A stretch of 64,000 nt of DNA from Antennarius striatus (taxonomy: Eukaryota > Chordata > Actinopteri > Lophiiformes > Antennariidae): contig NC_090777.1 of assembly GCF_040054535.1 (NCBI RefSeq), forward strand, positions 16,522,501-16,586,500. The letters run 5' to 3'. The notes under the pieces were generated by a model. The model saw only the letters and a program-made list of their open reading frames with translations, was not told where the DNA came from and made no database searches. Positions 415 through 48,200 of the stretch are shown here, piece by piece. The position numbers were made by a program, and so were the translations under genes. Position 1 is the stretch's first letter. Each line of letters begins with the position of its first letter.

Positions 415-492
415 ACCATAATTTGAATTCAAGTAACCCGCTGGTGGAAGATTCAAATGAATTATTCTGCTGGAAGGGAGAGTATTCGATCA
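415..492 (-). pseudogene. degenerate rer1 exon 5-like relic (R1)
   Basis: This stretch aligns by eye, without large gaps, with the real rer1 exon 5 at 47,845-47,923, starting with the shared AATTTGAATTC/AATTTAAATTC core. The reading frame is gone. It lies about 300 bp above the receptor-type promoter motif at 101-116, in the same orientation as rer1. It is the most diverged of the relics, so homology is likely but not certain. Confidence 0.4.
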
Positions 493-577
493 AGAGAGAC
501 AGACTGAGTTAATTAAGAGTTGAATCAGCTTTAGCCATGACCTGTAATTCATGTCCTCATTAAACAACACGCAAAAT

Positions 578-2911: not shown

Positions 2912-2930
2912 ATTAAACAACACGCAAAAT

Positions 2931-3683: not shown

Positions 3684-6600
3684 TTCTTCTACTTCTTCTT
3701 TTCCTTTCGGCTTTTCCCTTCAGGGATCGCCACAGCGAATCAATTGCCTCCATCTAACCCTGTCTTCTGCATCCTCTTCTCTCACACCAACTACCTTCAT
3801 GTCCTCTTTCGCTACATCCATAAACCTCCTCTTTGGTCTTCGTCTAGGCCTCCTGCCTGGCAGTTCAAAACTCAGCATCCTTCTACCAATATATTCACTA
3901 TCTCTCCTCTGGACATGTCCAAATCATTTCAGTCGGGCCTCCTGACTTCATCTCCCAAACCTCTAACATGTGCTGTCCCTCTGATGTACTCATTCCTGAT
4001 CCTATACTTCCTGGTCACTCCCAGAGAGAACCTCATCATCTTCATCTCTGCTACCTCCAGCTCTGCCTCCTGTCTTTTCCTCAGTGACACTGTCTCTATG
4101 ACATCGCTGGTCTCATCACAGTTTTGTACACCTTTCCTTTCATTTTAGCTGAAACTCTTCTATCAAACATCACACCTTACACTTTTCTCCACCCATTCCA
4201 TCCTGCCTGTACATGCTTCTGCTCCTCTTTTCCACACTCTCCATTGCTCTGGACTGTTGAGCCTAAGTACTTAAAATCCTCCACCTTCTTGATCTCTTCT
4301 CCCTGTAACCTCACTCTTCCACTTGGGTCCCTCTCATTCACACAGATGTACTCTGTCTTACTGCGGCTAACCTTAATTCCTCTCCTTTCCAGGACAAACC
4401 TCCACCTCTCTAGCTTCTCCTCCACCTGTTCCCTGCTCTCACTACAGATCACAATGTCATCTGCAAACATCATAGTCCATGGAGATTCCTGTCTAACCTC
4501 GTCTGTCAGCCTGTACATCATCATAGCGAACAAGAAGGGGTTCAGAGCTGATCCCTGATGCAGTCCCACCTCCACCTTGAACTCCTCTGTCACACCTACA
4601 GCACACCTCACCACTGTCTTACAGTCGTCATACATGTCCTGCACCGCTCTAACATACTTCTCTGCCACTCCAGACCTCCTCATACAATACCACAGTTCCT
4701 CTCTGGGCACCCTGTCATAAGCTTTCTCCAGATCTACAAAAACACAATGCAGCTCCCTCTGGCCTTCTCTGTACTTCTCTATCAACATCCTCAAAGCAAA
4801 TACTGCATCTGTAGTACTCTTTTTTGGCATGAAACCATACTGCTGCTCACAAAAGTTCACTTCTGCCCTTAGTCTAGCTTCCACTACTCTCTCCCATAAC
4901 TTCATTGTGTGGCTCATCAGCTTTATTCCTCTGTAGTTGCCACAACTCTGCACATCTCCCTTGTTCTTAAAAATGGGCACCAGCACACTTCTCCTCCATT
5001 CCTCAGGCATCTTCTCACTATCTAAGATACTATTGAACAACCCAGTCAGAAACTCTACTGCCACCTCTCCTAGACACTTCCAAACCTCTACAGGTATATC
5101 ATCAGGACCAACTGCCTTTCCACTCTTCATCCTCTTCAATGCCCTCCTCACTTCATCCTGACTAATCTTTGCTACTTCCTGGTCCACAACAGTCACCTCT
5201 TCTAGTCTTTGTTCTCTCTCATTTTCCACGTTCATCAACTCTTCAAAGTACTCTTTCCATCTTCCCATCACACTATTGGCACCTGTCAATAGACTTCCAT
5301 CTCTATCCTTAATCACCCTAACCTGCTGCACATCCTTCCCATCTCTATCTCTCTGTCTTGCCATAAGCTTCCTCATCCTCATAAGCTTCTTGTTTGGCCT
5401 TTGCTACCTCTACCTTCACCTTACGCTGCATCTCCCTGTACTCCTGTCTACTCTCCTCAGTCCTCTCAGTGTCCCACTTCCTCTTGGCTAACCTCTTTCT
5501 CTGTATACACTCCTGTACCTCCTCATTCCACCACCAAGTCTCCTTATCTACTTTCCTTCCAGATGACACACCAAGTACTCTCCTACCTGTCTCCCTGATC
5601 ACATTGGCTGTAGTTGTCCAGTCATCTGGAAGCACCTCCTGACCACCCAGAGCCTGTCTTAACTCCTTCCTAAAAGTAGTTGTCTAGTCATCATTTGCCC
5701 TCTTCTGATTCTGATTCTTCATATTCCTCACCACCACAGTCATCCTACACACCACCATCCTATGCTGTTTGGCTACACTCTCGCCTACCACTACTTTGCA
5801 GTCACTGATCTCCTTCATATTACACCGTCTACACAAGATGTAGTTTACATGTGTGCTCCGCCCACCACTCTTATAGGTTACCCTATGTTCTTGTGCCTCT
5901 TCTGGAAGAAAGTATTCACTATAGCCATTTCCATCCTTTTTGCAAAGTCAACAACCATCTGTCCTTCTGCATCCCTTTCCTGGATACCAAACCTGCCCAT
6001 CACCTCCTCCTCATCGTTTTTCCTGCACCAACGTATCCATTGAAGTCTACATTAATGACAACTCTCTCACTTCTAGGTATGCTCTGCATCACTTCATCAA
6101 AGTCCAACTAGAATTTCTCTTTCTCCTCCAGATGCATCCTACCTGTGGAGCATACCCACTAACAACATTGAACATCACACCTTCGGTTTCTAGTTTCAGA
6201 CTCATCACTCTATCTGACACTCTGTTTACCTCCAGGACATTCCTAACAAACTCCTCCTTCAAGATAACTCCTACTCCATTTCTTTTTCAATCTACACCAT
6301 GATAGAACAACTTGAACTCTGCTCCTAAACTTCTAGCCTTACTACCTTTCCACCTGGTCTCCTGGACACACAGTATGTCTACCTTCCTTCTCTGCATCAT
6401 GTCAACCAACTCTCTACCTTTTCCTGTCATAGTTCCAACATTCAACGTCCCTACTCTCAGTCCTATACTCTTGGTATTCCTCTTCTCTCTCCTCCTACGA
6501 ACACACTTTCCTCCTCTCCTTCTTCGACCAACAGTAGTCCAATTTCCACGGGCACCCTGTAGGTGAACAGCATGGATTGCGGTCGTTGTTAACCCGGGCC

Positions 6601-9488: not shown

Positions 9489-12400
9489 CTACTGACTTAT
9501 TGTTTTGGTATAATTCTGAATGAGATCTTGGAAATATTGCTTTGTGTTTTTGTGAGGTTGAAATATTATTATGTAACATTTTGGTAAGAAATACCAGAAC
9601 AGAAAAGAGAAGAGACTGGATAGAATTGCAAGAGCACTAAATATTTGGATGTACTTGCCACGATAAAGCATAAACACAGTGGCAAAGATAATCCAAGTGA
9701 GAATGAGCAGAAGCAGACAGAAGGTTATTGCTTTGGCCTCATTATAATTTTTTGGGAGGTCTTTTCCCATATATGAGAAAATGAAGCAAAGGAAACACAA
9801 GGTTCCAAGTAAAAGTGTGGAAATTAAGACTTCATTAACATTAATGTTACAACCAAGTATGATTTTGTCTGGGTACCAAATTGTTTCATTGTAGGGCTTG
9901 GGTGGATGGAAAGAATAGTTAATTAGAAATAAAAGTGCCTGAGTAACAAAAGCCACAATGATGACCAACCACTGCCCGTGATATTTCATCCACCAAATAT
10001 GGATCTTGGGGAACTTGGCAGCAATTTTAAAAATGCAAACAATTTGAAAAGAACGAACAACAAAACATGCAAGACAAACTGTGTAGAACAAAACAAAAGG
10101 TAAGAACCTTAAAACACAAAAGGAGATTGTTGGCTTTTCAAAGTGAACAAACACACTAACAGTACAGAGAGTTAGGCAGCCTAAAATAAGGAAGCACATT
10201 GGCCCCCCAGCAGATCTGACAACAGGTGTGTTGTAGTTGATGGCAAAGACAGCAGACATGGCTAATGTGAGACCCACTAAGATCCAGGCCCCAACTGTGA
10301 TCATTATCGCCCCACTGTCTGTGAATGGGACATATTCCACCACCCGCAGACTGCATGATGTACTGCCTGGTTCAGACCATTCTGTATCCTTACAGGGGAG
10401 ACAATGGTAGGGGTCCTCTGTTCAACACAAAGAACAAATTATCAATAAAGTCATGGTCAATATTTTGAAAAATTATCATGCGTTTGAGGAAGCATTGTTA
10501 CAGCAGTAGCAGTGATGCAATTTTAAGATTCATTTTTGTTTAATTCTGAAGTATTCAGTTGGCAAAAGAAAATCGAAAGAAAGTTGTTAATAGTATGAAT
10601 TATCTTTGATATAATTTTAATATGACCAACAAACCAGCTCAATATACATTTGACCTGAACAGTTTATTTTTTTGAACTGTTTCATAGCATTTATTTTATG
10701 TTATTGTTCAGAAAATGTAATTGTTATAAGTATTATATGTATAAAATTATTTCTTCTTCTTCTTTTCCTTTCAGCTTTTTCCTTCAGGGATTGCGAATCA
10801 GTTGCCTCCATCTAACCTTATCTTCTGTATTCTCTTCTCTCACACCAACTACCTTCATGTCAGCTTTCACTAAGCAGCAGGGATGAGGATCAGCACCTCC
10901 GAATCGGAAGCCATGGTTTTTTTTTGCAGGAAACCGGTGGATTTCCTTCTCCTAGTGGGGAATGAGGTCCTGCCTCAAGTGAAGGAGTTTTAAAAATGCT
11001 CTCCATCTACTGTTCGATCCTTGTTCCTGCCCTCACCTATGGCCATGAGCGATGGGGCATGACCAAAGGAATAAGATCGTGGATACAAGTGGCCAAAATG
11101 GGTGTTCTGAGGCTGGTAGCTCAGAGTAGAGCTACTGCTCCATCACGTAAGAGTCAGCTGAGGTGGTCGGGCGTCTGGTGCAGATGCCATCAAGGTTTCT
11201 CCCTACGGACTTGTTCCTGGTACCTCCAGACCCAAGACCACGTGGAGGGATTATATCTCAACATTGGCCTGGGAACGCCCCGGGATTCCCCAGAGAGAGC
11301 TGGTTAATGTGGCTAGGTAAAGGGAAGTTTGGGGTCTGTTAAAGCAGCTGCGACCCGACTACGGATGAGCGGATGACGATGGATTGATGGATGTTCAGAA
11401 AATAAATTCAAGATTATTTTTCATGGCATTTCATCAGAATGGAAATATAGGCTGATGTTTCTTTATTGACAGGCTACGTTTCTTAGCCATTAGAAAAGTC
11501 AAGTATGAGTTTAGCGACATGTTCCAAGTAAGTGGCACAGCTTTGTACGTTGTTGTATGTCTCGGGGCGGCAGTGGCTCAATGGTAGAGTGTGTGGTAGA
11601 GCAGGTTGTCCAATGTTTCAAGATCGGCGGTTCGATTTCCGCTCCCACCTAAAACAACACCTGGAGGTGAGCTGACAGTGGGAGGTGTCAGTTCACCTCC
11701 GGAGTGCTACCAAGGTGCCCTTGAGCAAGTCGCCGTACCCCTTACATGTTGTTCATTTGGGCGTGCCACAAAGGAGCTGCCCGCCATTCTACCTCCTCTG
11801 CATGCATATAGACCCCCTTTGTGTGTGTTTGTGTGTTCAGGGCCTGTACACACATATACAGTGTATATGCATGATTCAAAACTAACTAGAGTGTACCATT
11901 AATTTCCCTGTGGGGATTAAAATCAGTATATAAAATTAAAAAATTAAAAATTATGTAATTTCATTTACCTGTAATGTTGATATAAGTTCCGTTTGGACAC
12001 ACTTCACAATTGAAACAACATTTGTAGATTCCATTTTGATTTTTTGCATATCCGACAGGGCATTCTTGTGAGCATATTGAGGTAGGCACCTGCAATCATT
12101 TAAAGCAAAAAATAAAATATAAGGAAACAAGGAGAATATTGTAGTGAACTTTTGCTGTAAAGAAAAGAAAAAGGAGATGCATATTCCACTCAGAGTCCTG
12201 TATCCTACAGAGATTTTCAGGGAGGGTTAGGGAAATCGTTGACAGATAGTGGTGTGGTATAGGAACGAAAACCTTCCATGGCCAAGGTGACAGAGATGGT
12301 TGTGCACTTCACATCCATTTCCAAAATATAGAATAGAATGGAAAATACAGGTAGCAAAAACTATTATAAAAAACAGTGCAGGTACAAGAAACAATTATAT

Positions 12401-15400
12401 AAATATATTTACAATGAGTCAACAAGAATGTAAAATAAAAAAACCCCCATTGTATTGATGATAGATAGAATACAGTATAAAGCATTAAAGTAATGACTTA
12501 CCTCTCCCTTTTTGTACCACTGAATTTTAGTGCGGTTGATGAAAAAATTGACCCAGGGGTGGAAATGGAAAAAGCCAACCTTCTCTGCATCACCTCTGTG
12601 ATTCCAGTAAACTATATAATAGTAACCAAATTTTGGGTCTCCATTCTCATCATACTCAATAGTCTGGTTTAAAAGTGTGAAGTTTGACTTTTTCAGCTCT
12701 GCTAGAATCTGATGTGGGAACACAAAATTCAGATGATCATTGTTTGCATGTGTTGGACATATGGATATGGATGCATACATGGGTGTAGACTGAATAAATA
12801 TTTGTATTTTCTTAATTGAACTTGGGCGTCGTTTTTGGCAGGTAACTTATGAGAACTAATTACCGTATTTTCTGCACTATAAGGCGCACCTCAAAGCCTA
12901 AAATTTTCTCATAAACCCGTAGTGCGCCTTATAATCCGGTGCGTCTTATATATGGATTAATATTCATATTAATATTGGTTATAAACATGATCGCTGAAAA
13001 AAACCCGGCAGTCTGGCCGCCAGTCATGCCGCACTCCGCCACCAGAGGCGCACCCTCACAAGGAACTCGGGCCCACGCCCCCTAACAACGGTAGTCAAGG
13101 GGCGTCACCGAAGTCCCGGCTCTGACTGAGCTGCTCTCAGACGGTAGAGCAGACTGTAGGAGCACCGGTGATTACGTAGCAAAACATAAGGAACTTTCAA
13201 CAATTCTATTAATAAAGTTTGACTGACTGATCTCAGTATTTCCTAACTATTTGGGGCCGGAAATAACCCACTTTAAACTTAATTGGTCTTAGAAATGCCA
13301 TTGTGCTGTCATCTGGAATCTAGTGACGGTCCATTCTATTAGACTGTGGAAACACACGGAGGAACTGGCATAAAGGTGAATGAAAGACCCTCAAAGATGA
13401 ACTTCCAGCCTTTTCTTAAATTTCAAGAGCAGAGTCACTGCTAGACAAAGGTGCCAACGGGTGTGCTGCAATTGATTTACAAATGTAGTTGATAGCTCTG
13501 GCTTGTGTATTCTGTCTGCAGCGACGTGCGGTGAGATTCACGGCGGTGAGACACCGACGTTAAAGTCAGTTCTAGGAGTAAAACAGCGTCATATTTGCCA
13601 GTAAATTAGCAACCTGACATTAAAAACTAGTTAAAAAATTGTTTAGGACACAGAACAGCAAATAGCTGCACCTCACATCCGACTGGACTACCGATCTATC
13701 GAAACAATATTTAATTAATAAACGAAGACGAACATCGGAGCTTAAATATCTGCTTCGATTTTCAGATCAGGAAATAATCCGCTCTGTTCACACTGACTGC
13801 ACTCGTAATGAATTTAACCAGTTTTTAATGTCAGGTTTTTTAATATGTGTGTTGACTTCTTTCTAAGATGGCAAAGTGATCAAGTGATCAGGTTTCCTTG
13901 ATGCGGCTCAGAAGGGCTTGTTCACATAACAATAGGGGGCATTCAAAGGTAGTCAGGAAGTCATGAATGCAATCATGACTGCCTGAGCAGCGCGGCTCTA
14001 TCTAGTGGACGGATTGCGCAACTACAGCCGCTGCAGTTTATCAAATACATTCTATTTATTTTTATTGTGTGCGCCTTATAATCCGGTGCGCCTTATATAT
14101 GAAATAAATTATAAAACAAACAAATTATTGAGGGTGCGCCTTATAGTTCAGTGCGCCTTGTGGTGCGGAAAATACTATAGAGTTGTCAGTGCACAAATCT
14201 AAGCTTACATCGGTTTACACATGCTGGTTCAAACAACTGATCTGAGGTGAGACATTATATTCATCATTCATTCATCCATCTTCCGAACCGCTTTATCCGC
14301 CGTAGCGGTTCACGGGGAGCTGGAGCCTATCCCAGCTGGTTTAGGGCGTGAGGCAGGGCAAACTAGGCCTGACGCAGAGCCACACAGAGACAGACAACCA
14401 TGGACATACACACTCACACACTACGGGCAATTTGGAACTTTAACCTGAAGCACATGTTTTTTGGAGGTGGGAAGAAGCCGGAGAACCCGGAGAGAACCCA
14501 CACAGACACGGGGAGAACATGCAAACTCCTCACAGAGCGTGACTTGAACTGGGAACCACATTGCTGTGCAGCGACAGTGCTATCCACTGCACCACCGTGC
14601 CGCCCCGTTAGACATTATAGCTCTCAGTAAATTCAGGTAAATTGAATGACATTGACAAAGGTTGATATATCATACAGCTGTACCAAAAATTAAAACAAAA
14701 AATGTAATGCAATTACCTAGATAAAAATGACATTTTATAATAAATTTCTAAAGGGCCTATCATCAATTTAACATTCATAAACATAAATGAAGAATTTAAG
14801 ATGTCTAATTACTGGTATACTTACCATTTGTGGATGTACTGTAACATTGTTATTACACCCATCATTTCCACATTGCAAGGCTTTGTGTAAGGCATGAGCG
14901 ATGGTATAAACAGCAGAATACACAGGAAAAGAGAAGGATGGATCTGCATCAATGATGTCTTTTGTACTGAGGCCGTTGTACTTGCAATGAGTTTGGTTTT
15001 TTTCAGAATAAATAAATTTATTGAAACCGGGTATTGTTACTTCTGGTTGTGAAACTCCAATTATAGTTCCAATTTTTCTGATTCCTTTCTCCTTGGGGAG
15101 CTTCTTGTTTAGGGACCATCCATCATCTGCAATCCACACCTTGTTTGTAACATTCAGTCGTATTGCTGATCCAATTACAGCTTCAGCAATTCCCTTTGGA
15201 GCAAAAACAATAATGGTGTGCACTCTTTGTGCTTCTATTCGTTTGAACATCTGGTGAAAATTTGTATTTATATTGAGATCTTTCGTGTAAGCCAGACAAA
15301 TGTCTGTGTCCTTAATCCTCTTAATGAAAAAATCACGTCCATCGATACCAAAATCGTTATCACTGTTAAGAAAAGCAACCCAGCTCCATTTGAAGTGCAG

Positions 15401-16433
15401 CACAATGTTAACAATCGCCTCTATGACATCCTTATTGGGTTGCACTGTTCGCAGAAAAGAGGGAAAATTCTGCTTTCTTGAAAAAACAGAACTAGAAGCT
15501 CCGTAACTGACCTGTCAATATATTATCAAAGAAATTAATAATTTTCAGCGACAAAAACAAAAAATGCAAAGTTCAAATTTACATAATTCAAAAGCTAAAC
15601 ATATAATAATGATGACATTTTATCAAATTTTTAATGTTGGTCTGTTTTTATTCATTCAATCTAAATTGAACAAAAATGTGAATACACAATGATTAGCAAA
15701 AATACCATGGGTATGAAATCCACCATGAACAGTGGGGCCACACTCAGGACCTGAGTGCTTGTAAAGGGACCAACAACTCCTATTACATTTGAGATTTTGG
15801 ACCTCTTGTTATGGTGCTCATGCCTAGGGTTGATCAAACCATTGACTGAGATGAGTTTTAAAACATCTGGGAAACTCTGCACATCTGAGCAGTGGTCAAA
15901 TATATCATAGCCCAGAGATACATTAGGCAGTAAATTGGCAGAGTTATTGATTTCCTCCACAGAGAATCTCATCAACTGAAATCTTCGATAGTTTGGGAGA
16001 AGAAATGGTTGACTACAGAGAGAATGGACAACAGTAGAGGGATTAGTTTTTGACAATTTGAACTACAATGTCAAAAACGGTTTAGTGAATTTTGCCAGAA
16101 TGATTTGAGCATTACAAAGGTTTAAATAACTATTATTTTTTCAAGGACTACGGTCAGCTCTCACATTTTACAACATATATGATAATGTAGAAATTAAATG
16201 ATTAGGAGATAAATCTGCCAGACATCTGCTCAGGTTTATTGTATTACATACCTGGAGCAGTCGATGGCTTCTGGTTTGTCATGATAGTCAGGGGCATTCA
16301 CATGATGAATATCAAAAAGCCCACCAATTAAATAATCTCCTTCCAGTTGAAACTCTGAAGCAGAAAATTCACATAGATCCAAGGTTTGTAGAAGAGAACC
16401 CAGGAAACACAGAGAAGCAAGAAAATATGCCAT
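9489..16433 (-). CDS. tas1r2: taste receptor type 1 member 2-like, gene 1 (six exons)
   Basis: Class C GPCR expected to act as a sweet or amino-acid taste receptor subunit at the taste-cell membrane, probably with T1R3. The coding exons, in transcript order, are 16433-16252, 16012-15706, 15511-14825, 12708-12502, 12089-11969 and 10417-9489. Every joint has GT-AG ends, and the total is 2,433 nt, giving 810 residues with no break. Exon 1 has a signal peptide and [16 protein letters not shown]. Exons 2-4 form the Venus-flytrap ligand domain ([16 protein letters not shown]). Exon 5 is the cysteine-rich domain. Exon 6 carries the seven helices with [42 protein letters not shown] and FLPKCYIII. The SAGGPMCFL and RSFQIVC motifs point to T1R2 rather than T1R1, T1R3 or V2R receptors. 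Introns 3-5 have collected several transposons. Confidence 0.88.
10755..10880 (-). mobile_element. RTE LINE 3'-end fragment
   Basis: The sequence matches the 3' end of RTE copy B (cttcttctttt...ttcagggat...gttgcctccatctaacc), about 125 bp long. It is a severely 5'-truncated insertion in intron 5 of tas1r2-like gene 1, in the same orientation as the gene. Confidence 0.8.
10985..11395 (+). pseudogene. LINE reverse-transcriptase C-terminal remnant, family uncertain
   Basis: The frame at 10,996-11,307 starts LYCSILVPALTYGHERW and is followed, with shifts, by sequence matching the widespread fish LINE tail (QLRWSGVWCR, then a PRTTWRDYIS-like segment, ending near GATGGATTGATGGATG). A minus-strand remnant of the same family lies at about 34,860-35,160. 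It sits inside intron 5 of tas1r2-like gene 1. I could not settle the clade. Confidence 0.6.
11564..11945 (+). mobile_element. tRNA-derived SINE-A, copy 1
   Basis: The head ggggcggcagtggctcaatgg contains a pol III A-box-like TGGCTCAATGG, and ggttcgatttc about 45 bp on is the B box. The body ends in a TTTCCCTGTGGGGATTA motif and an AT-rich tail. Copies of the same family occur at 28,125, 42,733 and 45,312. It lies in intron 5 of tas1r2-like gene 1. Confidence 0.8.
12863..14177. mobile_element. non-autonomous DNA transposon with GTATTTTCYGCAC inverted ends
   Basis: The left end reads gtattttctgcactataagg and the right end, reverse-complemented, gtattttccgcaccacaagg. Both continue into GGCGCAC and a second internal copy of the cgccttataatccggtgcg module (about 12,920 and 14,075). 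The two ends therefore carry duplicated inverted modules. A TA duplication at the outer edges is possible but ambiguous. No transposase frame was seen in the 1.3 kb interior. It occupies intron 3 of tas1r2-like gene 1. Confidence 0.75.
14264..14607 (-). mobile_element. tRNA-derived SINE-B, copy 1
   Basis: Read on the minus strand, it begins ggggcggcacggtggtgcag, continues through a cysteine-rich-looking tccggg/ccggagaacc body, and ends cagctgggataggctccagc. A plus-strand copy at 36,069 shares the whole length. The B-box region is somewhat mutated here. It sits in intron 3 of tas1r2-like gene 1. Confidence 0.8.
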
Positions 16434-16574: not shown

Positions 16575-16590
16575 CAAATCAGTATGCAAA
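16575..16590 (-). promoter_or_regulatory. conserved upstream motif of tas1r2-like gene 1
   Basis: The plus strand reads CAAATCAGTATGCAAA, 142 bp above the ATG. On the coding strand TTTGCAT is an octamer-like POU core. The same motif lies at equivalent places above genes 2 and 3. POU2F3 (Skn-1a) is known to specify sweet, umami and bitter taste cells, so a POU site is a reasonable inference. Confidence 0.6.
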
Positions 16591-16994
16591 GGTGCTGCAC
16601 AGATGGTTTAACATTGATCATGAATAAGCAAGTCTCATGCCCAAACCCAACATGCTCCTGCTGATGCCCAATAACTTATAATTAATGTCAGATTGGTTAT
16701 TCTGACATTCTGCAGCAAAACACATTTGATCAAGTGACAAAACCACTACACGTAATGGAAGGAAAATTTTCGTTGCATCCTCTGTATTTACAAACACAAT
16801 GTGAATTATGTTGAAGAGTGGAGTTGACCTTGATAAGGATATTTAGTATCATGGAGCCTTCACATCAGGTCATAAATACTAACGCTTTGGGTACTAATGA
16901 CAAATAGAGAGACACAAGTAAATTCATTATTGAGCCCAACGGACATTCAGGGAGTCACTCTCACAGACACTTCAGGGTATAAGACTGTAACAGA

Positions 16995-17180
16995 AATTAA
17001 AAAAACCCTTTCGGCTTGTCCCGTTAGGGGTCGACACAGCGTGTCATCCTTTTGCCATTTTAGATGAACGTTCATATTTGTTTGGCAAATTTTTATACGC
17101 CGGATGCCCTTCCTGCCACAACCCAATACATTTATCCAGGCTTGGGACCGGCCTACAGTTGGCACTGACGTCTGCCTCCC
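16995..17180 (-). mobile_element. short RTE-derived element with joined 5' and 3' ends
   Basis: One side (ttcggcttgtcccgttaggg) resembles an RTE 3' end, and the other (gccggatgcccttcctgcc, then atttatccaggcttgggaccgg) matches the RTE 5' end seen at 6,660-6,720 in copy B. Almost the whole coding part is absent. It is a SINE-like, internally deleted derivative. Confidence 0.6.
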
Positions 17181-17307
17181 GCAGGTCTGCAGCATACGTG
17201 TGAAGTGTTCGCTCCAAGCATTGACTCCATTCACTGCCCCTCCATGGAAGCTTATTTGAAGAATACACCAGTTTTAAACAAAATAAGTGATAAATGACCA
17301 GGATTCT

Positions 17308-17372
17308 CAACAAAATTTAAATTCAGGCAGCTGTTAGCTTATCATTTTGCTTGGAATGGAGGAACATTCCTG
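17308..17372 (-). pseudogene. rer1 exon 5-like relic (R2)
   Basis: The core aatttaaattcaggcag is nearly identical to the end of rer1 exon 5 (aatttaaattcaggcaa at 47,850), and atcattttgcttgg matches its middle with a small deletion between. It has no reading frame. It lies about 0.9 kb above the ATG of tas1r2-like gene 1, in rer1 orientation. Confidence 0.6.
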
Positions 17373-17574
17373 AGTGAGGCACAGTAAACTAATTTGAAAA
17401 AACATTCATCACTGAATTTATTGTGATAGTTATGTTTTAATATAGAAGCCTCTCCCAAAAAAACAAACGCTTCCTCTTATGAATGATCCAGCATCAGTCA
17501 GCACTCAACCACACAATCTGAATAGGAAAATTAGCAATAGCTCATATTAGGAAAGGGATAAATCGGAAGGACTG

Positions 17575-17662
17575 TCACCACAATTTGAATTGAGGCAACC
17601 AGCTGCTCAACAAGCATGAATTATCATTATGCATGGTAGGAAGGAATAGGCTGCCATCAACT
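17575..17662 (-). pseudogene. rer1 exon 5-like relic (R3)
   Basis: This second relic follows R2 closely: caatttgaattgaggcaacc, then ttatcattatgcatggtagg and aaggaat, collinear with rer1 exon 5. It shares post-exon sequence (gcagacta) with relic R4. Two relics this close suggest a further local duplication or two array units collapsed together. Confidence 0.5.
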
Positions 17663-18978: not shown

Positions 18979-18980
<2 letters not shown>

Positions 18981-19060
<80 letters not shown>

Positions 19061-23645: not shown

Positions 23646-23661
23646 CAAATCAGTATGCAAA
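23646..23661 (-). promoter_or_regulatory. conserved upstream motif of tas1r2-like gene 2
   Basis: The plus strand reads CAAATCAGTATGCAAA, 169 bp above the ATG, preceded by ACA as in gene 3. The coding-strand core is TTTTGCAT. Confidence 0.6.
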
Positions 23662-24887: not shown

Positions 24888-25289
24888 CCAACGTCTGGAC
24901 CGATATCTATGCAGACTAAAATCAGTGTTTTGAGGACCTACAGAACAAAGTCTGGTTAAGCTATTTTGGATACACTAAATGTTTGTAACTAGTGATGATA
25001 ATATCATGCTCGTCGAATCTCATTAACTGTCTGCACCACATAGTTTTGTACATAGTAGTAGAAAAAAATACCAAAATTAATATTAATGGAATCAAGAAAA
25101 ATACAGGGTTTTTTTGCTTTGTTGTTTGCTTTTACTGGGAAAACCTATTTTAAAGTGTATAGCATGCTGTTTCATTGATTGGGTTGATGGTCAAAACAGT
25201 AAAATGCAGTGCAACTATAAACTCACTGTAAATCACTTTAAGACAATAAACAAGAACCAAAGCAGTCAGAGACTGTGAAATCCCATGAC

Positions 25290-33637: not shown

Positions 33638-36600
33638 CTACTGACTAATTGTTTTGGTATAGTTCTGAATGAGACCTTGAAAGTACTGCTGCGTGTTTTT
33701 GTACGATTGAAAAATAATGATGTAGCATTTTGGGAGGAAATATGAGAGCAGAAAGGAGTAGACGCTGAAGAGTATTGCCAAAGCACTAAGAATTGGGATG
33801 TACTTGCCTCGGTAAAGCATGAACACAGTGCTGTAAACAATCCAGGTGAGCGTCAGCAGGAAAAGACAGAAGGTTATTGCTTTGGCCTCATTATAATTTT
33901 TTGGGAGGTCTTTTCCCATATAGGAGAAAATAAAGCAGAGGGAGCACAAAGTCACAAGTAAAACTACAGATGTAGAGGTTGCTGAAAAACTAATATCACA
34001 ACCAAGTATGATTTTGTCTGGGTACCAGAAGGTATCGTTGTAGGGATAGGGTGGATGGTTAAAATAGTTAATGAGAAGTAAAATTGCCTGAGTAACAAAG
34101 GTCACAGTGATGACCAACCACTGCCCGTGATATTTCATCCACCAAATGTAAAGTTTGGGGAACTTGGCAGCAATTTTGAAAATGCAAACAATTTGAAAAG
34201 AACGAACAACAAAACATGCAAGACAAACAGTGTAGAACAAAAGAAAAGGTAAGAACCGTAAGACACAAAAGGACATTGTTGGCTTGTCAAAAAAAAAGAA
34301 TACACTAATCGTACAGAGAGTTAGGCAGCCTAAAATAAGGAAGCACATTGGCCCCCCAGCAGATCTGACAACAGGTGTGTTGTAGTTGATGGCAAAGACA
34401 ACAGACGTGGCTAATGTGAGACCAACAAAGACCCAGGCCCCAACCATGATCAGTATCGCCCCACTGTCTGTGAATGGGACATATTCCACCACCCGCAGAC
34501 TGCATGATGTACTTCCTGGTTCAGACCATTCTGTGTCCTTACAGGGGAGGCAGTTGTAGGGGTCTTCTGTTTCACAAGACAGATAAATGTTTTGTCAATG
34601 AATCTTAGTTGCTAGAATGGTTAGCTCTGGGAGACAATTTACCTGTGATGTTGACATAGGTTCCATTTGGACAGAGTTCACACATGAAGCAACATTTGTG
34701 GATTCCATCATGATTCTTTGCATATCCTACTTTACACTCTTCTGAACATAGTGAAGTCGGCACCTGTTTGAGACAAAAATTTAGCAGAAAAGTAAATGAT
34801 GGATGCAAATAAATATGACGTAGCATTGATTTATATATAAAAACAACCTTCATTCAGTTTTTTCTGCTGATCCGGGTATGGGTCATTTTGTAAAATTCTC
34901 AGCAGAACATCCCAGTCCTCCCTCTTCCAGGCTACCTTTTTCCTGCTCTTATGGGGAAGTTGCTCCCAAACCAGTCGAGTTACATACTCTGTCCAGTCGG
35001 TCCTGGGTAGACCTCAGGGTTTTCTAGTGGGACATAATCTAAATACGTCCCAGAGAGGCGTTTATGAGATATCCTGACATAGTACCCAAAGCACCACTGG
35101 CTCCACTCTGAGCTCCTCTTGAATGAATGAGCACCCTTTCTTCTTTCCAATGGTGAGCCCAGACAACCTGCAGAGGAGGCTTTTGCATTCACAATCCTGC
35201 TTTTTGTTTCATAACTATAAGTGAAGTTAGGAAAGTAGATTTCTTGAACCATTACTTAAGTTTGTCAAACCCATGGCACTGTCCTGGACATTCACTGACC
35301 ATACCTTGTGGGAATCCTTCAGCTTGACAGACTCCCTTACCGTTGGTGTCTACCATCACGTTCTGGGATTGCTGAGACAACAGGCACATGCAAGCTTACA
35401 GTCATACCTGTAGACACCTCACTCAATATAATGAAGGCACAGAACATGGTCCATCTGGACTCAATGCCATTGATAATTGTAGTTCATTTCCCTTCCCAAA
35501 GGCACACTGACGCAAGTCTCTCATTTGCTGGTGAGAACCCTAATGTACAGTCACTGGGGTAGGGGGGCTATGAGTAGACCACCTGCTTGTCGTCTCTCAC
35601 AAGCAACTTGGCCTGGAACAGAATCAGGTTTGTCTCAAGGAGATGCGGACCAAGAACCTGTTCCATATAGTTGGGCAGACTACTTGCAGCCAGAATCACT
35701 CGTCTTCACAGCATTATGCCATTCCTTGTCCCCAAAGCCGTTTTTTCCAGCTGACAATTGACCTGGCAAATTGTTCACCTCTGTCTGCTGCCTGGTGCAC
35801 ATAACACCATACACCTATGGTTACTCCTGCAGGCAGTGGTCCCATTGGAGGACAAACCAATGTGGCTCTTTCCGGCTGTGTGTCTGTGCCTGGGTGAAGG
35901 CTCAGACCCTAAGCTCTTCGCAGTGAACCCATCCCATAGGCCCACCTGTGGGTCACAGTCCCATTATGCTCAATCTGGGTGTGGTAAACTGAGTCCTGTT
36001 CTTGTTCTTCTTAGAGGTATTTGTGATCAACATTAAATTTTACAAATAATTTATTATAACGCAATAAACGGGCGGCACGGTGGCACAGTGGGTAGCGCTG
36101 TCGCCTCACAACACGGCGGGTCCGGGTTCGAGTCCCACTCTGTGCAGAGTTCACATGCTCTCCGCGTATCCGCGTGCGTTCTCTCCAGGTTCTCCGGCTT
36201 CCTCCCACCTCCAAAAGCATGCGCTTCAGGTTGATTGGCCAAACCCAAATTGCCCGTAGGAGTGAGTGAGTGTGTGCATGTTTGTAAATTTTTGTGTGTG
36301 GCTCCGCAGTGCACTGGTGTCGTGCCAGGAGTGTTCCCTGCCTCACGCCCTATGCCAGCCGGGATAGGCTCCAGCTCCCCGTGACCTGCTACGGTGGATA
36401 CAGCAGCGGTACATGAAAAGGAATGAATGAATAACGCAATAAACAAGTACCACGGATGAATCCAAGCCATATTGCGTTTTTTTTCTCTGATACAACTGTT
36501 ACAACCCTAACCCTAATCTTAACCTCTAAACCTAGTCCTAATCCTAACTGTAATCCAAACCCTAACATCTAACTATAATTCTAAACCTAATCCTAATCCT

Positions 36601-38715
36601 AACCTTAACCCTAACCTCTGACCTTGATCCTAACCACCACCACCATCCCCAAACACAGACACTTTTTTTTTGCAGAATTGGCTAAAGCCAAATCAGAATA
36701 TTACTCCTTGTTTGAGACATACTCACTTTGTCATTGGTGTGCCACTGAATTTTGCTGCTGTTGATGTAGAAATGGAATGAAGATGGCTGAAATCCATAAG
36801 TGCCAACCTCCTCTGCATGACCATGGTGATTCCAGTAAACTATGGAGTAGGATCCATACTTGGGGTCGCCATTCTCATTAAATTCAAAACTGCGGTTTAA
36901 AAGTGTGAAGTTTGACTTCTTCAGCTCTGCCAGAACCTAGTGAGGGCACACATAGTCCTGAATATTAACATAAATGTTCACATTGAGCAGGTGTTGATTT
37001 AATGTATATCCCTCCATCCACACATTTCCTTGAAGACAAGATGATTGCAATCATCTCGTCATCAGCTGATGGTCTGCTCGGTGGGTAAGCCTATCCCAGC
37101 TGGCTATGGACGAAAATCGGGGTACAATCCAAATAAGATGCCGGCTCATCACATGGCTTTATTTAATTAAGAAAATGAATGAATGAACATACATTTTGCT
37201 CATACGCTGTAGATTTAAGGGCATTTCTTTTACGTCTCTGACATACAATAAGATAAGAGATCTGCATTGTGTGTTCTGATTGGCCACTTAAAAATTGTTT
37301 TGTTGTACGATTAACTTTATAGAGGCTTAAATAAGATAAGAAAATGACAACAAAGAAAAAGAAAAGTCATTTTATTTGTTTACTTACCATGTGTGGATAC
37401 ACTCTAATATTGCCATTACATGTCCCACTACCACATTGCAAGGCATTGTGTAAGGCATGAGCAATGGCATAAACAGCAGCATAAACTGGAAAATTGAAAG
37501 ATGGGTCTGCATCTATCACATCTTTTGCACTGATCCAACTGCAGTTGCAAGCCTGATTACAAAACATCAACTTTCCTGCACTTTCACAACAACTCTGGTT
37601 TTTGGAAGCATGGATAAAATCATTGAAACCAGGAATTAATACTACTTGTTCAGCAACTCCAAGTATAGTTCCAATATTTTTGATTCCTTTCTCCGATGGT
37701 AGTCTTTTGTTTAAGGACCACGCATCTCCTGCTATCCACACCTTGTTTGTGACATTCTGTTCTATTGCTGATTTAATAAGAGCCTCAGCAGTCCATTCAG
37801 GAGCAAAAACAATAATGATGTGTATCCTATGTGACTCTATCTGTCTGAATATTGATGAGTAATCAGTATTATGATTCAGGCCTTTGGTGTATGCCAGGCA
37901 GATCTCAGTGTCCTCAATATTCTTTATGAACAATGTCAGTCCGTCATTGCCATAATCATCATCAACGTTAAGGAAAGCGACCCAGCTCCAGGCGAAATAC
38001 TGCACTATTTTCACTATGACTTCTATAACGTCTTCATTGGGTTGCACTGTTCTTAGGAAAGAAGGAAAATTCTGCTTTCTTGAAAAGATAGAACTCGCAG
38101 CTCCATAACTGACCTGTTAAAGTACAACAGAGGAACTGTCATTATTTTCAGTTGGCAATTAAATTATCAATATTTAATCAATCTGTTTTAAAAGAAAGCT
38201 AACTTAAAAACGTACTGTATGTATAAAATAAAAGTAAACAGCTGTTGGCCAACTTACCATGGGAATGAGATTCATCATGAACAAAGGGGCTACAGTTCGT
38301 GTCTCAGTGCTCGTGTATGTGCCGACCACTGCAATCAGTTTGGATAAAATATCGTCTGATTCACCCCAAGGTTGGATGAAATCATTGAATGAGATGAGTT
38401 TCAATATTCCTGGAAAATTCTGCACGTCTGAGCAGTGGTCAAATATTTCATAGCCAAGAGATACATTTGGCAGCAGTTGGCTAGAATTGTTGATTTCTTC
38501 TACAGAAAATCTCATCAACTGAAACCTTCGATAACTTGACAAAACAAAGTGTTTACTGTAGATAGAGAACATGAAAGAGTTGTTCATTGTTTAACATCAG
38601 TGTTTTTGAAGGCTATGGAGATGTTCATATTTAGAGGAGGTCTCCATGGAACCACTATTGAATATCAACATAAATTCTCTTATAATATACTGTACATTGG
38701 GTGTGCGTGTGTGTC

Positions 38716-38809
<94 letters not shown>

Positions 38810-39066
38810 ACCATGGTATACATTATACATAGTTTTGTTTATCCTTGAAGAGGATCTGTTCAGATCCTTTGTTATAAAACTCACCTGGAGCAGATTGCAG
38901 CTACTGGTTTGTTATGATGGACAGTGGTACTGTCATGATGAATATCAAAAAGTCCACCAATCATATAATCTCCTTTGAGAAGAAACTCCGAGGTCGGGAA
39001 AGTGCACTGAGCCCAGACATGTAAAAGAGATCCCACAAGACAAAGACAAAAAAGAAAGTGTTTCAT
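33638..39066 (-). CDS. tas1r2: taste receptor type 1 member 2-like, gene 3 (six exons)
   Basis: Third receptor of the array and the one next to rer1. Coding exons are 39066-38885, 38555-38258, 38113-37388, 36936-36727, 34763-34643 and 34566-33638, total 2,466 nt and 821 residues, unbroken, all with GT-AG joints. Exon 1 begins [12 protein letters not shown], a signal peptide, followed by [16 protein letters not shown]. Exon 2 has [16 protein letters not shown]. Exon 4 is one codon longer than in genes 1 and 2 and differs at its end (WHTNDK). Exon 5 is [16 protein letters not shown]. Exon 6 has [38 protein letters not shown] and [10 protein letters not shown]. Intron 4 is the longest, with a LINE, a SINE and telomere-like repeats. 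Function is inferred as for gene 1. T1R2 assignment rests on 7TM motifs, not on a tree. Confidence 0.88.
34860..36040 (-). pseudogene. degenerate LINE, RT C-terminal end, in intron 4 of tas1r2-like gene 3
   Basis: The minus strand reads, with stops, [21 protein letters not shown] and [11 protein letters not shown] followed by [13 protein letters not shown]. This resembles the end of the fish LINE family also represented at 10,985-11,395. Sequence up to about 36,040 looks like more of the same degraded insertion. Confidence 0.5.
36069..36424 (+). mobile_element. tRNA-derived SINE-B, copy 2
   Basis: The head gggcggcacggtggcacagtg and the well-kept B box gggttcgagtccc mark a tRNA-derived promoter. 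The body runs through ggttctccggcttcctccc to gctccagctccccgtgacc and a gaatgaatgaat tail. The opposite-strand copy is at 14,264-14,607. Confidence 0.85.
36494..36645. repeat. degenerate telomere-like (CCCTAA)n tract
   Basis: There are many CCTAA and CCCTAACC words with interspersed variants over about 150 bp in intron 4 of tas1r2-like gene 3. No long perfect TTAGGG run exists, so it is a decayed interstitial tract or a simple repeat. Confidence 0.75.
38723..38802. repeat. (TA)n microsatellite
   Basis: A pure TA tract of about 80 bp lies in intron 1 of tas1r2-like gene 3, next to a short GT tract. Confidence 0.95.
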
Positions 39067-39200: not shown

Positions 39201-39216
39201 CAAATCAGCATGCAAA
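39201..39216 (-). promoter_or_regulatory. conserved upstream motif of tas1r2-like gene 3
   Basis: The plus strand reads CAAATCAGCATGCAAA, 135 bp above the ATG. It is identical to the copy at 101-116. The coding-strand core is GTTTGCATGC. Confidence 0.6.
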
Positions 39217-42234: not shown

Positions 42235-45200
42235 TTAACTTGCAAAAGCATTCCCTGTGTCTTCCTTGCCTTTGTATGTCCTCTTCCCATGTGTGAAGGG
42301 TAGGTATCTGTACTTGATCATGTGCTACACACAATGAGGAAGAAAAATAAGAGTAATTAGTAACATATCTCAAAAGTTTGGTCAAACACTGGACAAAGTT
42401 CCCTATTTGAAGGTGTAGCACAGAAAACTTCTGATTTTACTAGGCAGATAATATAAAGAAAACACTAAGAAATGTTACTTGTACAAACATACTGCATATA
42501 AAAAGTCCACACAATAAATACATATGCCATACAATACAGCCCTTCTAAACATACAGTAGATCCTCTATGGATATGTTAAGTAAACTTTGTAGAATTCTTA
42601 ATACAAGCAAACCTTGGTTTTTGAATGCTTTAGACATCGAACATATCGGAATTTGACCAAAAAATTCGGAATCTTTTTGTCTTCAGAAGTCGAACAAATT
42701 TTGGAAGCTGAACGCGAAACGAACGCTTTTTTGGGGCGACCGTGGCTCATCCAATGTATCGCAGGTCGTCCAATGATTTAAGATCGGCAGTTCGATTCCC
42801 GCTCCCGCCAAGTCACTTGTCGTTGTGTCCACACTTTACCCTCCTTGCCTCCAGTGGGGCACTCGCTGGTGTGTGAATGTGTGTGATTGTTCCGCCGGTG
42901 GTCAGAGGGGCCGTAGGTGCAGATTGGCAGCCACGCCTCCGTCAGTCTGCTCCAGGGCAGCTGTGGCTACACACATAGTCTACCATCACAAAGTATGAAT
43001 GAGGAGTGAATGAATAATGGATCCAATGTAAAGCGTCTTTGAGTGTCCAGCAAAACGCTATATAAATCTAATCCATTATTATTATTATTTCTCTCCGCCA
43101 AGCGCGAGTAGAGAGAAAAAGTGACAGCAATGTGCTTTTTATTTTAGTTTACTGCACTGAATAATTTTTTCACTTAATTTGCGTTACACTGCCTATGGTA
43201 CAAGTTACGGTTCCGTAAACTTTTGTCCAAAAGACGACGGTAACTCGTACCTTAGGTAACTCGTACCTTAGGTAACTCGTAACCTGATTACGTTGTAACC
43301 TTACGATTTTTTTTCTTTCTTTCTCGTGTTTGCTTCTTTCTTTTACATTTCTTTGATATGTTTTATTACTATACAATTTGATATATAAATGACATTATGA
43401 AATAACATTTTGTTGAAAAAAGATAGTTTTCTACGTCTTGGAATGGATTAAGACCATTTACATTATTTGTAATGGGAAAAATGTATTTGGAATTCAAACA
43501 AATCGGTATTCGAACAGCCTTCCGGAATGAATTGTGGTCTGAAACCAAGGTTTGCCTGTAGTTTAATTGACTGTAGTAGACTGGTGTTGGCAATGTACAC
43601 TCTTTTTTAATTACCTTGATCTGCCTCTTCATGGTGATGCAGAAGAGCATGATGAAGTACATTACAAGTATAGGCCAGAACACTGGCACATTGAAGGCAT
43701 CAAAAAATGTGCAAATCATGGCGATGACGATGCCTTTGGTTGCTGAATGCCTGCCAAGAAAAGGAACACAAACTCTGATAAGGCAGGTGAGAGGGCAGCA
43801 TAAAATAAAGCTTTTTTAACTTGAACTCACGTGAAATATATCCAGACTACAAAATGGCATAAAGTCACAGTAAAAACTCATTAACTCAACAAAATCGTCA
43901 TTTAGAATAAGTCAGTTACAATCTTTCATTCATACTTAAAGATCTAAGGAAAATTTTTCACATCTTATGTCCTTTTAAGTGAAGTTAATGCAAAATAGAC
44001 TGATGAATCTGAGATGAGGACATAACAAGAAGAGGTCCACGCCCTCTTCCTGTTGCGGTAAGCGTTTCCGTCATTTCCTGTTGTGTTTGTTTGACTGTGG
44101 CCTCTTGGTTTGCTGTTTTCGCATAATCAGTTAAATATCTCATGTCATTTTAGAACTTGATAAACTTGATAGCGAAAGCCATCACGTATTTTGGCTAACC
44201 TCTTACGAGTTGTTAATTATTAGGGTAATCTGCTGTAGCTTAGAGCTAGCTTAGCTGCTAATCATGGCTACGGTTCCTCCCTTCCACTCTCCACCCTCTA
44301 ACCAAGGCTTAGGCAATTGGAAACTCTGGTCCACTCCATGACCGAAAATATAGCTGTACCACCTAGCCAGGTATCTTTAGCCAGAGCGGACCCACCAGCT
44401 CAGGTTAGCCACTCCCCAGTTCAGGTTAGCCATCCTCCAGCAGCTCCCAAGCAGTCAGGAAACAGGAGCAGTGGGTGACTGTTCGTAGGAAGCATAGCGG
44501 GAGGCGAAAGCCTCAGGTTCACCACCAACCACCGCAACCACTCCGTATCTCAAACAGTTTTTGCCAGACATACCCGCTAAGAAAGATACTCTGGTCATTG
44601 GCAGGTCTGTGATGCGGAATGTTATGATAATGACACGAGCGACCATAGTGAAATCTATTCTGGGAGCCAGAGAGGGTGACACTGAATCATATACTGCATA
44701 CAAATCCTGGCTAAAAATAACCATAAATATAGTAAGATTGTAATTCATGTCGGTGGTAATGACACCCGGTTATGCCTATTGGAGGTCACTAAAATCAACA
44801 TAGCGTCAGTGTGCAGCTACGCTAAAACCCATGTCGGACTACGTCGTGTTCTCTGGTCCCATTTCTAATCTGACATGTATAGCCGCATGTCTTCACTTAA
44901 CCACTGGCCGTCTAGGTGGTGTCCTGCTAATGACATATACTTACTTAATAATTGGCAAACTTTTTGGAGAAAACCCGGTCTTATTGGGTGAGATGGCATA
45001 CATCCCACTTGGAACGGCGCTGCTCTCCTGTCCAAAAATCTGACGATGTTTAATTCCAACCCAAAACCCTGACCAAGAGTTAAAACCGGGATGCAGAGTC
45101 GCAGTCTTACACAGGTCTCTGCGCTCCTAGAACTGTCACCTACTATACACACTATACTGTGTCTGTCCCCCGACCGTTTAAAGTTAATTCATGTAGAATG

Positions 45201-48200
45201 AATTCATTTCAAGTCCAGACGAAAGCAACTGGACATCCAAACTTAATAAAAATCCCCAATAAAAATGACCAATAACTTTTTGCATCTAAATTCTGGTAAA
45301 TTGAAGTCATTGGGGCGGCAGTGGCTCAGTGGTAGAGCGCGTGGTAGAGCTGGTCGTCCAATGGTTCAAAGATCGGCGGTTCGATTACCGCTCCCACCCA
45401 AAAAGAACACCCGGAGGTGAGCTGACAGTGAGAGGTGTCAGCTCACCTCGGGAGCACTGCCGAGTCGCCCTTGAGCAAGGCACCATCCCCCTTACAAGTT
45501 GCTCATTTGGGGCGCACCAATAAAGGAGCTCCCCGCCACTCTGCCTCCTCTGCATGCGTACAGGCCCCATGTGTGTGTTTGTGTTCAGGGCCTGTACACA
45601 CATATACTGTATATGCATGATTTGATTTGAACTAACTAGAGTGTGCTACTAATTTCCCTGCGGGGATTATAATCAGTATATAAAATTAAAATTTAAAAAA
45701 ACCAAAACATTGTGCTTGGCCCAAAACCGTTACGGATGTAGTGCCCTGTGACATAATTGCCTTGGATGCATCGCTTTTGAGGCCAAAACCACTGCAAGGA
45801 ATCTAGGTGTCATCTTTGTATGGGTCTGTCGTTGAACTCACAAATAATCACATCACTTCCAGACTAGATTACTGTAACGCACTTTTTTCAGGCTGCCCCA
45901 AAAAGTTGCTGGAGACTCTTCCAACTAATTCAGAACGCTGCCGCCGGTGTTCTGACCAGGACCAGTGCCAGAGACCATATTTCTCCTGTGCTGGCTTCTC
46001 TGCACTGGCTTCCTGTGAAAGCTAGGATAGATTTTAAAATACTCCTCCTCACTTACAAAGCCCTTCGTGGCCAGGCACCGACCTATCTGAAGGAACTTTT
46101 AGTTCCTTATAATCCATCTAGAGCATTACGCTCTCAACATACTGGCCTACTGGTGGTTGCTAGAATTTACAAAAGTAGGACGGGAGCTAGAGCCTTTTGC
46201 TATCAAGCCCCTCTATTGTGGAACCACCTCCCTACCTCGGTTCGGGGGGCAGACGCCCGCTCACTATTTAAGACTAGACTTAAAACTTTTCTTTTTCATA
46301 AATTTTACAATTAATGGCAACTTAGGTTACTACATTTATTTTCATATAGACCTACACTGCTGGAGACTCAACATCCAGACTCACTGAGTTCCTCTCTCCT
46401 CCCCCTTCTCTCCAACCATCTCTGTTACTCCTCCTCCTCTCTTATATCACTCTCCAAGTCTCCCATCACATCCTACTAACTAAACTTCTTCCCTGGAGTC
46501 TCTGTGCTCTATGTCCTCACAGGTTTTTCTCAGGTTCACCCCTCATCCACCCATCTGCTATGGACCTGCTCTTCCCATCCCACCAGTACCACCCCTAACC
46601 TAATCATCGGCTGGGGTCCGGCTTCCTTTTTCCTCCACGCCACCATACTGTTCCACCCCTCATCCACCCATCCGCTGTGGACCATCTGCTGTGGACCTGC
46701 ACCTCCCATCCACCAGTAGCACCCCTCACCTAACCATCGACTGGGGTCCTGCTGCCTCTCTTCCTTCGTGTCATCTTACTGTACCACCCCTCATGCGCCC
46801 ATCCGCTGTGGACCTTCCTCTGTGGACCTGCACCTCCGAGCCCACCAGTATCACCCCTCATCTCTCCATGTGCTGTGGACCTTCTCCTCCAAGCCTACCA
46901 GTACCACCCCTCAACTATCCATCGGCTGGGGTCCTGCTTCCTTTCTTCCTCCGTGCCGCCATACAGTCATCCACGCAGCTGTAATTGTGCCTTGACTTTA
47001 GCAACCTTAACCATATTGACACTGTCTCTATCTGGCCTATCTGCCACTCTCTGTCTGTCTCTCTCTCTCTGATGCTGTTCTTATCTTCCTTTGATTTCTT
47101 TTCCACCCAACCGGTCGAGGCGGATGGCCGCACAAAAGAGTCTGGGTCCTGCCCGGAGTTTCTTCCTCATCGAGGGAGTTTTTCCCCGCCACTGTCGCTT
47201 ATGCTTGCTCTGGAGGGTTCAGTTGGGTTTCTCTGTCTGTTAAAGCGCTTTGAATCATCTGCTGCCATGATTAAGCGCTAAATAAATAAAACTTGATTGA
47301 TATATTGAAGACGACAACCCAGGAGTCGGTGAACGCAGCTTGACTTTCCCATCCCCACTTCAGCACCTGCATCAAATTGCCTTACTATAACCATAGTAAG
47401 GCAATAAGGCACTGACTCCATTTGGCCGATCTGCCACTCTCTCTTTCTCTTACCCTGTCTTTATCTTCATTGTATTTCTTTTCCACCCAACCGGTCAAGG
47501 CGGATGGCCACCCAAAAGAGTCTGGGTCCTGCCTGGAGTCTCTTCCTCAACAAGGCAGTTTTCCCCGCTGCTGTCGCGTATGCTTGCTTTGGGGGGTTCA
47601 GTTGGGTTTTTCTGTCTGTTAAAGCGCTTTGAAATGTCCGTTTTCATGATTAAGCACCTTATAAATAAAACTTGATTGATTGATAATTTCACATGAGGGC
47701 ACAGATAAATTTAGCCTAGTGCTTATGGTTAAACATTTGGTTTCTACATTTTTACCTTTTTAATTACCTCTGCATGACTAAAACTGTATTTCAGAATCAC
47801 CCAGTGACATATGGGTACGGTTAGGGAGCAAAGGTCATCCTCACCAGAATTTAAATTCAGGCAACCTCCTGATGAAAGGGCGGAACTCCTCATTTTGCTT
47901 GGTGGGAAGGGATGGACCCTCATCTACAGGAAAAGTTTACAGTTGATTAACAAGTTATTATTACTTCATGATGAGTAATCTTTTGGAAGAGCAACTACCA
48001 AGAGGAAACAAACCATCAACAGCACTATTTAAGAAAAAAGAAGAAGCAAAAACACACACAAACACGCACACGAAAATTACTTATAAATCTCTTAGAATGA
48101 CTCAACTCTAATTATACAGAACTGACCTTTACAAACAGCACTGATGATAATTCAAAGTTATTAACAAAACACAAGGATTAAAAATTTCAACAACAAATAA

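Follow-up and report, generated by a model that had tools for sequence, protein, structure and literature searches.

Degraded copies of rer1 exon 5 in front of tas1r2 taste receptor genes of Antennarius striatus as probable remnants of tandem duplication

The 64,000-nt stretch of Antennarius striatus DNA analysed here (the window; C2:16,522,501-16,586,500) carries three tas1r2 taste receptor genes, tas1r2-A, -B and -C, arranged head to tail on the minus strand, and an intact rer1 gene that lies upstream of tas1r2-C on the same strand. In front of the receptors stand four relics of rer1 exon 5, R1 to R4, which are probably left over from the tandem duplication that spread tas1r2. R1 lies in the spacer S0, R2 and R3 share the spacer SA, and R4 lies in the spacer SB.

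405-493, minus strand: relic R1, identical to exon 5 at 45 of 79 exon positions
17298-17373, minus strand: relic R2, identical at 43 of 65 aligned positions, with a 14-base gap
17567-17661, minus strand: relic R3, identical at 54 of 79 positions; may have arisen by local duplication from or with R2
24804-24891, minus strand: relic R4, identical at 50 of 73 positions, with a 10-residue peptide run still readable
47845-47923, minus strand: functional rer1 exon 5, 79 bp, Pfam Rer1
42238-51384, minus strand: intact rer1 gene, Pfam Rer1
~51301-51384, 49502-49606, 48788-48886, 47845-47923, 43620-43749 and 42238-42324, minus strand: rer1 coding exons, ends approximate except for exon 5
9489-16433, minus strand: tas1r2-A, limits set by the stop in the transmembrane exon and by the inferred start codon
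19333-23477, minus strand: tas1r2-B, same limits
33638-39066, minus strand: tas1r2-C, same limits; the rer1-proximal receptor, whose junction with rer1 is best read as parental

T1R2 structures are the best matches of tas1r2-B, and thus its nearest solved relatives; 7tm_3 and ANF_receptor domains are found in this gene, and the extracellular exons of A, B and C all match medaka T1R2a (5x2m). Genome-level statements refer throughout to the readable part of the 548 Mb searched (42 contigs), stretches of N being excluded. Within it, the transmembrane exon of tas1r2-B (305 residues) finds only itself, A and C at an identity of at least 85%, the remaining 62 of 65 matches being at most 38% identical, and rer1 is single-copy, with all four PF03248 (Rer1) matches falling in the rer1 gene of the window.

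The presence of exon 5 relics in front of the tas1r2 genes is confirmed by several searches. In Smith-Waterman comparisons of exon 5 with the three spacers, the observed score was reached by none of 400 dinucleotide shuffles in any spacer (fitted P of 2e-4 for R1 in S0, 3e-7 for R3 in SA and 3e-7 for R4 in SB); extending the query by 80 bases of flank gave weaker values (4e-4, 2.5e-5 and 2.6e-3 for S0, SA and SB). When the window and 75 kb of readable left flank (139 kb in total) were scanned in 2772 tiles, both strands included, the exon itself (score 410), R3 (183), R4 (179), R2 (138) and R1 (131) came out on top, all in the '+' orientation, followed at sixth place by a match on the opposite strand (114) that marks the background maximum; the relics are thus the four best non-self matches to exon 5, and all have the orientation of the exon. 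Leave-one-out nhmmer profiles recovered each relic (E values of 2.8e-6, 4.1e-6, 1.4e-8 and 2e-4 for R1 to R4), and a profile built from the four relics alone recovered the working exon at 1.7e-17, the best unrelated match among the seven best of the five runs having an E value of 0.014. The fragments therefore match the adjacent intact rer1 above chance. The initial annotation had placed four decayed copies and their functional counterpart at these sites, all in one orientation, and had named failure to exceed shuffled controls as a ground for rejection; the exon lies where it was put, the relics within about 10 bases of the positions given, and both orientation and similarity hold up. No fifth relic was found between tas1r2-C and rer1, where the best score, 109, falls below the background of 114; a candidate at 41.3-41.6 kb was dropped, being not clear of the background and having a profile E value of 19.

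All four relics share not only orientation but also an equivalent position in each unit, about 0.3-1.2 kb from a receptor promoter block, and R2 to R4 lie about 0.9-1.3 kb from the inferred start codons. The block comprises 16 bases, TTTGCAT(A/G)CTGATTTG, contains a POU octamer and has a single variable base across the four tas1r2 positions:

101-116, minus strand: octamer-containing promoter block TTTGCATGCTGATTTG at a presumed fourth receptor position, whose receptor is not seen
16575-16590, minus strand: octamer-containing promoter block of tas1r2-A
23646-23661, minus strand: octamer-containing promoter block of tas1r2-B
39201-39216, minus strand: octamer-containing promoter block of tas1r2-C

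The blocks of A to C lie about 135-185 bases upstream of the inferred start codons. The proposal that the relics stand just upstream of receptor promoters is thereby borne out for R2 to R4; for R1 it depends on the block at 101-116, as the receptor itself would lie in an unreadable stretch. Two stretches of N of exactly 5000 bases each occur here, C2:16,517,501-16,522,500, which touches the left edge of the window, and C2:16,590,001-16,595,000. R1 is 0.3 kb from a tas1r2-type promoter block, which suggests a fourth receptor, itself not seen, within the 5 kb of N on the left. The transmembrane and extracellular exons of B found no match in the 75 readable kb beyond this gap.

Sequence from intron 5 accompanies the relics. 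Flanks of exon 5 and of the four relics were compared in 10 sequence pairs per side against 500 shuffles each, with no correction for the 20 tests. Five of the 10 pairs are similar on the intron 5 side (R1-R4, parent-R4, R2-R4, R1-R3 and R1-R2, with 0, 7, 8, 11 and 23 of 500 shuffles, respectively, reaching the observed similarity); the other pairs gave 30 (R3-R4), 69 (parent-R3), 131 (parent-R2), 208 (R2-R3) and 276 (parent-R1) of 500. The clearest remnant is attached to R4:

24688-24803, minus strand: intron 5 remnant, alignable to parent intron 5 (within 47,690-47,840) and to the R1 flank (302-411)

Homology to intron 5 implies that the copied piece was genomic rather than a retrocopy. The relic search suggested in the initial annotation, for intron sequence and for exons 6 and 7, thus succeeded for the intron and failed for both exons.

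The divergence of the relics agrees with decay outside coding constraint. Mismatches to exon 5 number 34/79 in R1, 22/65 in R2, 25/79 in R3 and 23/73 in R4, and when pooled by codon position amount to 28/97, 32/102 and 44/97 at positions 1, 2 and 3. This third-position excess (Fisher p 0.014, indicative only, as the cells share one reference exon) is what should be expected when a neutrally decaying relic is compared with an exon that still codes: divergence (K) at positions 1 and 2 measures the relic branch, whereas at position 3 synonymous change in the working gene comes on top and raises K. Accordingly, positions 1 and 2 together have 60/199 mismatches and a pooled K of 0.39 (0.65, 0.38, 0.30 and 0.27 for R1 to R4), and position 3 has 44/97 and a K of 0.70. 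A relic that had gone on coding for a while would likewise yield such an excess, so that this test alone cannot separate the two. R1 is the most decayed and has no third-position excess (11, 12 and 11 mismatches). Between A, B and C, synonymous divergence (dS) in the extracellular exon is 0.80-0.99 per pair; set against the pooled K of 0.39 (0.27-0.65 for single relics, all small samples), relics and receptors are of equal age within the error of such short sequences. In R4, 26 of 30 bases of a 10-residue run are identical to exon 5 and all four changes are synonymous, as had been pointed out for this relic beforehand. This run was picked afterwards, and since both splice sites of R4 are lost at the aligned positions, it is no evidence of recent coding use. 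Across the relics, the donor GT is kept at the aligned site in 2/4 and the acceptor AG in 0/4, the acceptor site falling in a gap in R1 and R2.

Relic-relic identity exceeds the expectation for independent decay in five of six pairs, R2-R4 being the exception, which hints at some shared history after leaving rer1. Separated by 270 bases within a single spacer, R2 and R3 share five non-parental states where 2.0 are expected. Evidence that one is a local duplicate of the other is mixed, and such a duplication is possible at best, because R1 and R4 show a like excess (8 versus 3.4 expected) and R2 and R3 do not resemble each other in their intron 5 flanks. Between promoter block and relic, A and B further share a segment of about 380 bp that was not found upstream of C or in S0:

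16605-16988, strand not assigned: spacer segment of A, similar to 23,718-24,095 of B (1/200 shuffles)

The receptors themselves date the array. Over the large extracellular exon, medaka T1R2a shares 60-63% identity with A, B and C, against 64-67% among these three themselves; the duplications are therefore old, dating from about the split from medaka or slightly later. Exon 1 and the extracellular exon yield a star-like receptor tree, and elsewhere a grouping of B with C leads (35 sites against 28 and 20 in exon 2; 27 against 9 and 7 in the first half of the transmembrane exon). Along the transmembrane exons (9489-10406, 19333-20250 and 33638-34555), identity among A, B and C is 92-97% in the first half and 81-82% in the second, and third-position differences rise from 5' to 3' (from 0.05 to 0.38 for B-C), a gradient which suggests that the 5' part is a conversion tract or was recently homogenised.

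We consider it probable, at roughly 0.72, that the relics are remnants of a tandem duplication which spread together with tas1r2 and whose block started inside rer1. From the pattern as a whole we infer the following order of events. The array would have grown by tandem duplication of a block with its upstream end within rer1, close to where exon 5 starts, and its downstream end beyond a tas1r2 gene, so that in the first extra copy the receptor would have been preceded by a fragment of rer1 lacking its 5' part. Exons 6 and 7, together with the 3' region, would have disappeared from this fragment early, with exon 5 and part of intron 5 remaining, and the trimmed unit would then have been copied with its receptor in further rounds of unequal crossing-over, R2 and R3 perhaps arising by local duplication. 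Thereafter the rer1 pieces would have decayed free of coding constraint, and the intact rer1 beside tas1r2-C would mark the parental junction. The initial annotation had proposed this junction, together with a duplicated unit made of a tas1r2 gene and the 3' half of rer1. The junction of tas1r2-C with rer1 is indeed the best reading, since the sole rer1 found adjoins tas1r2-C and rer1 stands beside tas1r2 in medaka, fugu and zebrafish in the neighbourhoods given in PMC7014666. As to the unit, orientation, intron 5 and age speak for tandem duplication, but of the 3' half neither exon 6 nor exon 7 was detected in the spacers.

Several observations weigh against this reconstruction, above all the missing exons. 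Exons 6 and 7 were not detected in the three spacers at either the DNA or the protein level, despite good power: simulated relics of these exons were recovered in 90-100% of cases at 63-68% identity (as in R2 to R4) and in 51-100% at 56% (as in R1). Contiguous coverage from the breakpoint through the rest of rer1 is thus lacking; either these exons were never copied or, if the block extended from exon 5 as far as the receptor, they would have been deleted early on, an event that is not directly seen. A loss before the unit multiplied would be the simplest account. In addition, three of nine scores exceed a lenient threshold, set for the power estimate as the maximum of 60 sequences randomised at ~25% identity without keeping composition: exon 6 in S0 (138 against 129), exon 6 in SA (133 against 123) and exon 4 in SA (114 against 113). 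Under composition-keeping shuffles the same three comparisons give P of 0.019, 0.21 and 0.092. The average score of exon 6 relics simulated at 56% identity is 160-169. Strictly speaking, faint traces of exon 6 could still be present in S0 and SA. On the intron 4 side, similarity is nearly absent, with only parent-R2 (2/500) among 10 pairs below 0.05 and R2-R3 at 26/500, and the breakpoint is not located, although it seems from these flanks that the copied piece ends not far upstream of exon 5. The S0 spacer does not match those of A and B (93/200 and 165/200 shuffles), and A is not grouped with B against C in the receptor tree. The tree thus lends no support to the derivation of A and B from one trimmed unit, a signal that conversion may have blurred.

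Further searches for other parts of rer1 gave the same picture. Exons 2, 3, 4, 6 and 7 showed no exon-5-like pattern in the tile scan, and no relics of them were found in 25 tests against five regions with dinucleotide shuffles; the lowest P values were 0.0095 (exon 2, SA), 0.019 (exon 6, S0) and 0.053 (exon 7, SB), and the targets of the first two both cover a receptor promoter block. In S0, this block and R1 are separated by less than 300 bases. In a frameshift-tolerant protein search of the three spacers with exons 4-7 (12 tests, each with 16 shuffled controls), exon 5 alone scored above the controls, and an apparent likeness to exon 7 in SB near 23.88 kb was dropped after it. Comparison of the spacers with the rer1 3' region, intron 6, intron 5 and the region upstream of C gave no value below 0.05 in 15 tests (lowest 11/150). 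At the receptor 3' flanks, strong matches consist of exon ends and repeats, the flanks being too diverged to reach a breakpoint.

The main competing account is a short ectopic copy of exon 5 and some 100-150 bases of intron 5, made for example by template switching, that hitch-hiked with a multiplying receptor. It dispenses with both the long block and the deletion of exons 6 and 7, and it fits well with the detection of exon 5 and adjoining intron 5 sequence alone, exons 4, 6 and 7 going undetected at good power. We nevertheless regard it as unlikely: it would be a coincidence for the donor to be the adjoining gene and for the copy to share its orientation and to land on the proper side of the receptor, whereas all this follows directly from block duplication. 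The further 380-bp segment shared by A and B between relic and promoter also counts against it. Another account, more doubtful still, sees a cis-regulatory element of tas1r2 in the exon 5/intron 5 stretch, which selection would have maintained after it was duplicated along with the receptors; the proximity of all four relics to a promoter block might suggest as much. Twenty of 64 ungapped columns are matched by all four relics where 13.0 are expected (the columns include two bases beyond the acceptor side of exon 5 and one beyond the donor side), and the best 15-column patch has a permutation p of 0.03. However, conservation is only slightly uneven in an alignment that is itself anchored on conserved patches, the pooled divergence fits the neutral expectation from the receptor genes, and the octamer block in the same promoters is, by contrast, near-invariant. 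Little probability likewise attaches to an ancestral tas1r2 control element within exon 5/intron 5 that each successful duplicate would have needed, and under which the relics would persist through a part that still functions.

An origin from a dispersed repeat or an exon-capturing transposon inserted near the receptors is very improbable. Repeats do occur in the spacers, one at ~16,993-17,192 between A and B (40 of 1751 candidates scored), but the relics lie outside it, and all four share an orientation and a position, with none elsewhere in the 139 kb. Genome-wide DNA queries with the R1, R2+R3 and R4 regions each returned only the query itself, and thus no copies at unrelated places; these searches skip common words and detect close copies only, so that very diverged ones could escape. 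A dispersed repeat occurring elsewhere in the genome, which would have refuted the initial annotation, accordingly finds no support among close copies. Chance resemblance might be argued from the modest identity of single relics (57-68% over 65-79 aligned exon positions), but it is refuted by the leave-one-out profiles, the shuffles and the tile ranking, and its probability is negligible.

Read as remnants of tandem duplication, the relics would give the expansion of tas1r2 a polarity, by naming the parental receptor, as well as a likely unit boundary and an age. This evidence is independent of the receptor genes, whose own record is blurred by homogenisation of the transmembrane exons, and an exon 5 relic could serve as a marker of whether the tas1r2 arrays of other fish share one origin. 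The known function of the taste receptors is unchanged by the relics, which document, in an ordinary way, how a gene family grew. Tandem duplication units with a truncated copy of a neighbouring gene are a known kind of event; in such cases too, the intron is included, the orientation is the same, the fragment is repeated with the unit and decay is unconstrained. Unlike them, each copy here retains a single 79-bp exon and some intron, the rest being undetected. Several T1R2 copies are likewise found in other teleost expansions of tas1r2 (TAS1R2B), for instance in miiuy croaker, stickleback, grass carp and medaka (PMC4763219, PMC7014666, PMC10781636), and tandem expansion of T1R2 with gene conversion is described for croaker and stickleback (PMC4763219). 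The neighbourhoods in PMC7014666 list rer1 beside tas1r2 in zebrafish, medaka and fugu, accompanied by tp73 and gpr153 in the latter two. In the excerpted text of PMC4763219, PMC7014666 and PMC10781636, no description of rer1 relics inside tas1r2 arrays was found, and the excerpts of PMC4763219 do not mention rer1.

The octamer block is near-invariant, even though the extracellular exons of the receptors differ at 35-40% of their four-fold sites. It occurs five times in the readable genome, against an estimated ~0.5 expected there, and four of the five lie in the window; the reversed pattern, as a control, occurs 0 times. The fifth occurrence, C11:2,620,952-2,620,967, may be due to chance, as no T1R-like exon is among the matches listed on C11. 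Judged by its sequence, the block is a candidate Skn-1a/Pou2f3 control site of tas1r2. An Oct-binding site of the ATGCAAA type upstream of TAS1R4 is a proposed target of Skn-1a/Pou2f3 (PMC10781636). The likeness is an octamer upstream of a T1R gene; the difference from that TAS1R4 site (PMC10781636) is that here a 16-base block with one variable base precedes TAS1R2 genes.

Just downstream of tas1r2-B, a 449-base stretch (18591-19039) has a 93% identical copy 37 kb away at C2:16,503,503-16,503,935 (window positions -18997 to -18565), with no match to the B transmembrane exon nearby, which suggests a recent copy or a low-copy element.

On the minus strand at ~55964-56590 lies an open frame which, from its sequence features, we take to be the end of tp73; Pfam gave no match above the curated cut-off for it. 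The assignment agrees with the rer1-tp73 neighbourhood listed in PMC7014666. Finally, two copies of an element, at 4193-6520 and 25641-27965, are 88% identical over 2.4 kb, and a reverse transcriptase domain is found at 4177-5403 on the minus strand.

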